Assembly: GCA_027972325.1 (NCBI GenBank)
Contig: JAPMOS010000005.1
Coordinates: 376,001-440,000, forward strand
Direction: 5' to 3'
Source: Paratrimastix pyriformis
Lineage: Eukaryota; Preaxostyla; Paratrimastigidae
Length of the DNA: 64,000 bases
Below, piece after piece: positions 6,337 through 61,560 of the stretch. Each line of letters begins with the position of its first letter. Position 1 is the stretch's first letter. The position numbers were made by a program, and so were the translations under genes. The notes beneath the pieces are model-generated. The model did no database searches. It saw nothing but the letters and a program-made list of their open reading frames with translations, and was not told the DNA's origin.

Positions 6337-8110
6337 ATGAGCGACGCAACCGGACCTTCTGAAGATGTGTTGCCCAGAGGCCGCCCGACTCTCCAGCACC
6401 TTTTCGAAACCAATCCATGCGTAAAAGTGAGCGGCCCCATGGTGCGGTATTCGAAATTGCCCGCTCGGCTGCTGTGGAGGAAGTGGGGCTGCGACTTGGT
6501 ATACACGCCCATGTTTGTGGCCAGTTGTTTCGCGGTGAGCCAACGCGCTCGCGACTGTGATTTTACCACCACTCTTCCGGAAGCAAACCCGGCAGATCGG
6601 CCGTTGATCGTTCAGTTCGCAGTTGCCGATCCTCAAATCTTCGTGAATGCATCGAGAATTGCTTTTGCCAACGGATCGTGTGATGGCGTCGATATCAATT
6701 GTGGTCTGTGTGCTTCCTCTTTTTGCTTGCACAACATCAACCACAAAACCCGCGCGCAGGCTGCCCCCAAAAGTGGGTCTGCACCGATGGCTACGGGTCT
6801 GCTGCACTTCGTTGGCTTTTCAACTTGACTTTTCCCTCAGATCTTCGCTCTTGGAGCGGCCACAAGACATTGTCGCGATGCTTCGTGCGGCCCGGGACCA
6901 GATCCCCGAGGTTCCAGTCTCGGTGAAGATACGACACATCCTGGCCGACGACGAGCTCAAGAACCGACACAATGAACCCACGCGGGAGTCGCTCTACAGG
7001 ACGATCGAGTTGGCCAAGGCCGTCCAGGATGCCGGCGCCTGTCCGTCCCGCATCTTGGTGTTGGTGTTTGGTGGTGGATGTACCCCCAGGTGATATACCC
7101 CCCCATGGTGATATGGTAATAGACCCACACGGTGATATACGCACACGGTGATATACGCACACGGCGATATACGCACACGGTGATATATATACACATCATC
7201 TACATCACCCCCAACCCCCACGCACCGTGTATGGACAGGGCTTCTGACGGTCCGGCGCCATCTTGGTGTTGTGGTGGATGTACCCCCTGAGTATCTCATA
7301 CCCATCATCTGCTTCATCCCGTGTATGGACAGGGCTTCTGACGGTCCACGGGCGCACCGCCAAGACCTCCTCCTCTGTGCCTGTGTGCCTGGAGGGCATC
7401 AAGATGATCAAGGAGACCCTCAGCATCCCCGTCATCGCCAATGGAGATATCTTCGCCCCCGATGATGTCCTGCGAACCCAGGAGATGACCGGGGTCCGTC
7501 CGCGGCCTGTGGCTGTGGCTGTGGCTGCGCCTGTGGCTGTGGCTGTGCCTGTGCCTGTGGCTGTGCCTGTGCCTGTGGCTGTGCCTGTGGCTGTGGCTGT
7601 GTGTGTGGCTGTGGCTGTCTGTCTGTCTGTCTGTCTGTCTGTCTGCCTGTCTTCCTGTGCTGCCTACTATGCCTGTGCCTGCATGCGTGCGCGTGCGTGG
7701 GGGGGGCAGGCGCGTGATGCGTGGTGGGCGTGTGATGTCATCCCCTCTCGGGAGTCACCGTTCACTCGCCTCCCCCCCCCCCCCCCCCCCCCCAAAAAAA
7801 AAAGGTGAACGGGGTCATGTCAGCCCGGGGGCTTCTCCAGAACCCGGCCCTCTACGCCGGATACAACCGGGTGCCCGCGGCCGCCGTCCAGGACTTCCTG
7901 GATCTGTCCATCCAGTACGGCCTCAGCTACCACCTGCTCCACAACCACCTCATGTTCATGCTGTACCCGGTCCTGGCCCGGGCGGAGCGACGCGAGCTGG
8001 CCGAGTGCGCCTCGCTCTGTGCCCTGATGGACTTCTGCGCGGCGCAGGGGCTCTGGACGCCCTTCGAGAGCAGGCCGGCCGTGGCGGGTGTCACCCCGGG
8101 TATGCTGTGA
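6337..8110 (+). CDS. DUS4L: tRNA-dihydrouridine synthase, DUS4-like
   Basis: This flavoenzyme reduces uridine to dihydrouridine in the D-loop of tRNA; the DUS4 branch is known for positions 20a/20b. Five exons join in frame: 6337-6703, 6760-6796, 6841-7040, 7333-7493 and 7805-8110, giving 356 residues. Hallmarks in order are KVSGPMVRYSKLPARLL, CDLVYTPMFV, PLIVQFAV, the DGVDINCGCPQ catalytic block (formed across intron 1 and containing the active-site Cys), LLTVHGRTA, IPVIANGDI and NGVMSARGLLQNPALYAGY. These match DUS4L at full length. Donors are GTCTGT, GTCTGC, GTCCGT and GTCCGT. Intron 3 (7041-7332) carries a decoy copy of the next exon start. Intron 4 (7494-7804) is filled by CTGTGG and CTGT repeats, then poly(C) and poly(A) before the acceptor. 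Confidence 0.93.
7041..7332 (+). repeat. DUS4L intron 3 with duplicated splice-junction segments
   Basis: The last 14 nt of this intron and the first bases of exon 4 (7319-7347) are repeated upstream at 7225-7253, acceptor included. A second block beginning CATCTTGGTGTTG occurs near 7051 and again near 7260, each followed by GGTGGATGTACCCC. Between them lie repeats of GTGATATACGCACACG (about 7085-7190). The structure looks like overlapping tandem duplications of the junction region. Confidence 0.8.
7494..7804 (+). repeat. Microsatellite-filled DUS4L intron 4
   Basis: Repeats of CTGTGG/CTGTGC run from about 7505 to 7615, then (CTGT)n to about 7645, then a unique stretch, then runs of about 22 C and 11 A directly before the acceptor AAAAG at 7804. 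The C run stands in the position of the polypyrimidine tract. Confidence 0.85.

Positions 8111-61560: not shown

Follow-up and report, generated by a model that had tools for sequence, protein, structure and literature searches.

Why should an intron carry a second copy of its own exon–intron junction, and how could such a copy have arisen? The question is raised by a stretch of 64,000 nucleotides from Paratrimastix pyriformis (contig JAPMOS010000005.1, our C441:376001-440000, hereafter the window), and the scanned genome comprises 56.06 Mb in 495 contigs. Many short exons, U1-like and U6 genes and a Vps18 gene are found in this material, and four of five predicted proteins have a Pfam match, i.e., a Dus enzyme, a p24-family protein, a protein kinase and a TADA2A-like-domain protein. 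The original prediction listed twelve sites at which a segment spanning a donor or an acceptor recurs inside the adjoining intron, and read them as growth or creation of introns by tandem duplication across splice sites. Two further features of this genome are mentioned here for completeness. Three introns of the window (at 17579-17647, 43581-43647 and 56933-56998) contain a dispersed element roughly 70 bp long (AAGTTCGCT...GTCCGATTGAT), which has at least 41 genome matches including itself, most of them near 90% identity. Stop-free protein-kinase-like frames are found in groups genome-wide (e.g., contigs C113, C25, C175 and C2), besides kinases that are split into exons.

Briefly, short tandem repeats were masked and the window was compared with itself, a near pair being two matching segments less than 1.5 kb apart. 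Light masking left 39 near direct pairs and stricter masking left 29, part of them accounted for by protein-domain repeats at 21-26 kb; under either mask there was one near inverted pair. Sixteen junction-copy sites emerged: the twelve already listed, one of them three-copy, all of which were re-found within about ten bases, and four additional ones (3511/3574, 13822/13972, 14659/14557 and 51039/50932). The copies are 25-88 nt long, of which 8-53 nt are exonic and 3-80 nt intronic; please note that these extents, like the roles of parent and copy, depend on the gene models of an ab initio two-strand finder. Identity between copy and parent is 87-100%. All sixteen copies are direct and lie within the intron of the parent junction at an offset of 63-540 nt, which bears out both the same strand and the closeness claimed before. 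Nine are donor copies and seven are acceptor copies, and six of the latter (7225, 14557, 41922, 50932, 56000 and 58936) precede the real acceptor by 94-107 nt. Microsatellite had been said to lie often between the copies; by our reading of the spacers, repeats are present at about nine of the sixteen sites, while some spacers are non-repetitive. Mismatches fall 4, 5 and 10 times at codon positions 1-3 and two of six exon indels are multiples of three, so that this codon-position test gave no clear trace of a former coding role in the intronic copies.

Eight of the sites lie outside the Vps18-like gene; all coordinates are on the + strand of the window. By pairwise alignment, the donor junction at 3511-3540 (intron start 3524) recurs at 3574-3603 (offset +63, 97% identity). 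The acceptor junction at 7319-7347 of the Dus gene (exon start 7333) is preceded by an identical copy at 7225-7253 (-94, 100%). One predicted gene at 12059-26564 (+), probably two genes, has an N-terminal part that resembles phosphoethanolamine transferase by eye, with no Pfam match in the first 354 aa, and its remainder is a long run of repeats resembling IPT/TIG domains. The donor junction at 13822-13865 (intron start 13849) has its copy at 13972-14015 (+150, 89%), and the acceptor junction at 14659-14724 (exon start 14672) has one at 14557-14617 (-102, 87%). In the TADA2A-like-domain gene (Pfam PF22941), the acceptor junction at 29827-29853 (exon start 29832) is matched at 29677-29703 (-150, 100%). 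The putative parent donor at 33936-33984 (intron start 33982) is accompanied by a copy at 34230-34281 (+294, 96%), which the gene finder used as a second, extra exon, and by a third, diverged copy at 34126-34175 (81%). The donor pair at 41170-41222 and 41392-41444, with GTCTGT at 41207 and 41429, is ambiguous as to which member is exonic. Finally, the acceptor junction at 42018-42067 (exon start 42039) recurs at 41922-41970 (-96, 98%).

The other eight sites belong to the Vps18-like gene (47240-61560, +), which has 29 predicted exons, a few of them doubtful, and introns rich in (CAT)n and other satellites. Its donor junction at 47884-47918 (intron start 47916) has a copy at 48076-48110 (+192, 89%) that is a weaker donor. 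The donor at 49474-49525 (junction at about 49516-49518) is found again at 50014-50062 (+540, 94%), with a 34-bp satellite between, and a third time at 50107-50139. The acceptor at 51039-51081 (exon start 51056) has a copy at 50932-50976 (-107, 93%) in which AG is changed to AA. The longest intronic part is in the donor at 51659-51746 (intron start 51667; 8 nt of exon and 80 nt of intron), copied at 51924-52013 (+265, 99%). The remaining four, whose junctions are supported by homology, are the donors at 52906-52950 (intron start 52932; copy 53028-53072, +122, 93%) and 55326-55369 (intron start 55353; copy 55537-55582, +211, 95%), and the acceptors at 56100-56151 (exon start 56109; copy 56000-56051, -100, 96%) and 59033-59057 (exon start 59040; copy 58936-58960, -97, 100%).

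Which of the two sites is used? The outer splice site is used at all six sites that could be checked by homology. The predicted, outer-spliced Vps18 protein aligns to 8dit_C across residues 319-805 (E = 1.2e-97 for the protein as a whole). Its junctions 52932, 55353, 56109 and 59040 (residues 403, 578, 606 and 720) are themselves free of gaps, the closest gaps at two of the four being about 5-7 residues away. Junction 7333 corresponds to residue 55, within the span of the Dus Pfam match (1-138), and junction 29832 to residue 325, within that of the TADA2A-like match (291-358). As for the decoy splice sites that the copies had been predicted to supply, these were indeed found: GT is intact in nine of nine donor copies and AG in six of seven acceptor copies, i.e., in 15 of 16 copies together. 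By this indirect evidence, the outer sites seem to win and the intact decoys to be ignored.

The donors themselves are unusual. Predicted donors read GTCYGY rather than GTRAGT, with C at +3 (about 82%), C or T at +4, G at +5 (72%) and C or T at +6, and the same donor signal was obtained whether the gene finder was trained from a flat start, from GTAAGT or from GTGAGT. The canonical start of U1 is AUACUUACCUG. At least eight U1-like genes (loci L009-L016, among the best 41 of 992 candidates, which were the ones scored) all start with AUACAGACCUUG; all eight begin ATACAGACCTTG, the complement of which is CAAGGTCTGTAT, and the canonical start is absent from them. Their scores of 50.8-60.2 bits (E down to 4e-13) are below the Rfam gathering score of 69.5. 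U6 retains ACAGAGA in the single locus read, of four U6 loci, and this could pair with UCUGU. From these sequences, U1 and the 5' splice site appear to have changed together and to be matched. The genome contains 427 occurrences of the pattern MAGGTCYGTMYG vs 101 of the reversed pattern. We also tried the 12-base perfect U1 complement as a genome pattern and rejected it as uninformative (12 matches, eight of which are the U1 genes themselves, vs 15 for the control).

How often do junction copies occur, and are they specific to the window? An automatic search compared each modelled junction with its own intron at a score cut of at least 20, with the expectation taken from other introns, and the comparison sample consisted of two other 100 kb blocks and further pieces, all less selected than the window. 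In the window and the two blocks, 18 of 1,042 junctions have a copy vs about 0.05 expected, and inverted copies were found at one of the 1,042. The observation on which the original prediction rested is thus correct and far above chance. By region, 14 of 216 junctions in the window and four of 826 in the two blocks reach the cut; the automatic count is 14 and not 16 because the gene model puts two or three of the sites elsewhere. One donor match in the second block (B2), which stops short of its junction, was not counted as a junction copy. Counted by intron at a score of at least 18, the figures are 14 of 108 (13%) in the window vs six of 413 (1.5%) in the two blocks (Fisher p = 1.7e-6); among introns of at least 200 nt they are 13 of 65 vs four of 142 (p = 9e-5), and with the wider target region 15 of 108 in the window vs 10 of 490 outside. 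Junction copies are therefore real elsewhere, yet roughly seven to nine times commoner in the window.

We then considered the position of the copies, for which 22-mers were searched for a copy in the adjoining intron. In the window, the copy-bearing 22-mers peak near the junction, mainly on its exon side, with nearly none deeper in the exons: 38 of 1,089 windows have a copy between -20 and +9 of donors and 40 of 1,469 between -10 and +29 of acceptors. By class, the window gives 65 of 2,232 (2.9%) at junctions, 135 of 15,695 (0.86%) in introns and 111 of 13,329 in exons, these being mostly at exon edges. The other blocks give 29 of 9,586 (0.30%), 272 of 50,362 (0.54%) and nine of 61,610, respectively, once a large satellite of block B1 (C1:100001-200000) is omitted. 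This intronic satellite, at 79467-80111 of B1 with a unit of 127-138 bp, makes up 23 of the 40 intron-only runs of the block, and without it the intron rate elsewhere is 0.54% instead of 1.3%. Junctions thus exceed introns about threefold in the window, whereas elsewhere introns are somewhat above junctions. The pattern of the other blocks, with introns above junctions and almost nothing in exons, is what one expects from position-blind copying plus loss of exonic copies; selection of the window for its very pattern may contribute to the junction peak there. Outside annotated exons the copies are on the intron side, and the exon-side rows are either these pairs read in reverse or belong to one tandemly repeated gene. 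Matches within annotated exons of more than 60 nt were set aside (26 on the intron side and 27 on the exon side), and this even split is taken to reflect coding repeats.

The frequency of junction copies is linked with satellites. In the window, the blocks and the further pieces, 25 of 598 introns have a junction copy with a score of at least 20, and the rate rises with satellite density within 3 kb: 2/226 (below 5% density), 4/153, 7/141, 5/47 and 7/31 (above 30%; p = 4e-7). This count is without 13 introns near 66-69 kb of B1, where there is a gene of tandem repeats, introns included, and without loci L002-L008, L037, L038 and L041, while L040 has zero predicted introns. The trend holds outside the window, where 10 of 490 introns have a copy (p = 0.008). 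A satellite-rich 10 kb piece, 20 kb past the end of the window on the same contig, has two sites among its seven introns, compared with none among the 41 introns of two satellite-poor pieces; a third such piece is without predicted introns. A rough logistic fit puts weight on intron length, satellite density and window membership alike. The median length of introns in the window is 424.5 nt with a copy vs 231.5 nt without (p = 0.0017), although longer introns could also simply give copies more room to land.

Taken together, we lean, somewhat beyond an even balance, toward short, local, same-strand copying in unstable satellite-rich DNA, which is tolerated at exon edges and lets the introns grow. 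In such a process, a short stretch (~25-90 nt) would be copied to a place ~60-540 nt away in unstable, satellite-rich non-coding DNA, either by slippage during replication, after which the strand goes back to its original template, or by break repair that fills a gap from nearby sequence. Copies wholly within exons would break the protein and be lost, and copies wholly within introns would be harmless. Those spanning an exon edge would be tolerated, as the spliceosome would stay with the splice site farthest out, be it donor or acceptor; the spacer and the inner copy would then turn into intron, giving a longer intron and an unchanged protein. The copies are direct, close and non-inverted, and tied to unstable repeats. 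Short and sharp same-strand homology, the lack of a transposon family in the spacers of 13 of the 16 sites and the satellite link argue for local copying at replication or repair, and the step from copying to intron growth is based on the use of the outer site and the greater length of copy-bearing introns. We infer that, within each pair, the intronic member arose later, and that intact inner sites are ignored owing to exon definition. The junction peak in the window counts against the proposal, because a position-blind mechanism would not predict it; the narrow acceptor offset of 94-107 nt and the copy turned extra exon at 33936/34230 also stand against it.

An alternative near the original prediction is that a longer unit spanning the junction was tandemly duplicated and fast satellite turnover then erased its non-exonic part. 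The satellite-density link fits this, and so does the pair at 41207/41429, where a satellite motif follows both copies and homology continues for 118 nt at 79%; a near-tandem case with an offset of 81 is found at 52.7 kb of B1. At 7333, 51667, 56109 and 59040, however, homology of 96-100% ends abruptly and the spacer is largely non-repetitive. Full tandem duplication is disfavored because the homology is shorter than the offset at most sites, and in its simple form, with homology over part of the offset, abrupt ends and some non-repetitive spacers, it fits many sites poorly. We regard this alternative as unlikely. Of the original prediction, we retain that junctions already present were duplicated locally and on the same strand, in association with satellites and with longer introns, and growth is plausible; the creation of introns is not supported. 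One may also think of a process aimed at junctions, or of selection keeping the copies as splicing aids, such as decoys or spare sites. The sharp exon-edge peak in the window, the GT or AG retained in nearly all copies and the narrow offset of the acceptor copies would all be in its favor, but in the other blocks junction windows fall below intron windows (0.30% vs 0.54%), the copies are so little diverged that intact sites need no selection, and one acceptor copy has lost its AG. We consider it quite doubtful.

Intron birth by tandem genomic duplication would suit duplications located at introns in intron-rich genes. It requires a donor in one copy and an acceptor in the other, a layout present at none of the 16 sites, and in-register similarity between donor and acceptor flanks of at least 20/36 is found in two of 521 introns vs 0.6 expected (at least 22: one vs 0.0), which makes this reading exceedingly improbable. 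Any-register similarity of at least 18 is seen in nine of 521 introns vs 0.1 expected, a figure inflated because the flanks overlap in introns of 40-43 nt; one such match, at 52.7 kb of B1, was considered as a duplication-born intron and rejected, as it is an acceptor copy. The succession of copy, spacer and copy does look like the insertion of a mobile, introner-like element with a long target-site duplication; the spacers of 13 of the 16 sites, however, match only themselves and simple repeats (best candidates scored, very common words skipped), and similarity between spacers is at most weak and repeat-like (best score 16). Such insertion is highly improbable here. The satellite association might also raise the suspicion of an assembly artefact, in which haplotypes were strung one after the other or sequences were joined wrongly at satellites, a frequent point of assembly failure. 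Against this, the copies are short, up to 13% diverged, placed in differing flanks and rare in exon interiors, and we find an artefact very unlikely. Exon duplication yielding mutually exclusive exons was rejected, since it would copy an entire exon together with its two splice sites, and the copies here include only 8-53 nt of exon; possible exceptions are 33936/34230 and 49474/50014, whose copies were modelled as exons by the gene finder.

If local copying at exon edges is true, existing introns could lengthen without any change in the protein. The sites would also offer natural tests of splice-site choice, with pairs of nearly identical sites separated by 63-540 nt, the outer one seemingly being used, and a copy frequency that rises with satellite density would link intron growth to repeat instability. 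The rewired pair of U1 and 5' splice site would be a natural case for change in the most conserved contact of splicing. A bolder and rather speculative extension, which we doubt as a whole, is that in a lineage with a co-changed U1 (AUACAGACCUUG) and GTCYGY donors exon definition is strong enough to ignore near-exact second sites, such that satellite-driven junction copies pile up and exon-edge copying is a main force shaping introns in satellite-rich regions.

How do these observations compare with known systems? We found no description of a GTCYGY-type donor in the open literature searched. A diplonemid is reported to have a U1 with a C-rich 5' end alongside a normal U1 (PMC12621601), and the U1 5' ends of a tunicate with odd introns are reported to be unchanged (PMC13326754). 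Introners (PMC9860276) likewise gain intron DNA by insertion, but the spacers of 13 of our 16 sites yielded no dispersed family. The review PMC3443670 attributes to Hellsten 2011 and to Gao and Lynch 2009 the creation of a new intron from a duplicated AGGT segment. Tandem genomic or internal gene duplication of this kind is similar to our case in being a local direct duplication that involves splice sites; it makes a new intron, whereas our sites are duplications of a junction that was already there, placed within the intron of that junction, and a new intron was not seen. In Drosophila, novel intron positions are explained by intron sliding or tandem duplication (PMC2891723), and tandem duplication near intron ends is shared with the present case; the intron position changes there, whereas in our case the place of splicing is unchanged at the sites that homology was able to check. 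The review PMC3443670 also describes gained introns of Daphnia that are flanked by direct repeats, together with a double-strand-break-repair model. Both systems have direct repeats at introns, separated by other DNA; the Daphnia repeats are short and enclose the intron as a whole, whereas in P. pyriformis the repeats of 25-88 nt sit at one end of the intron.
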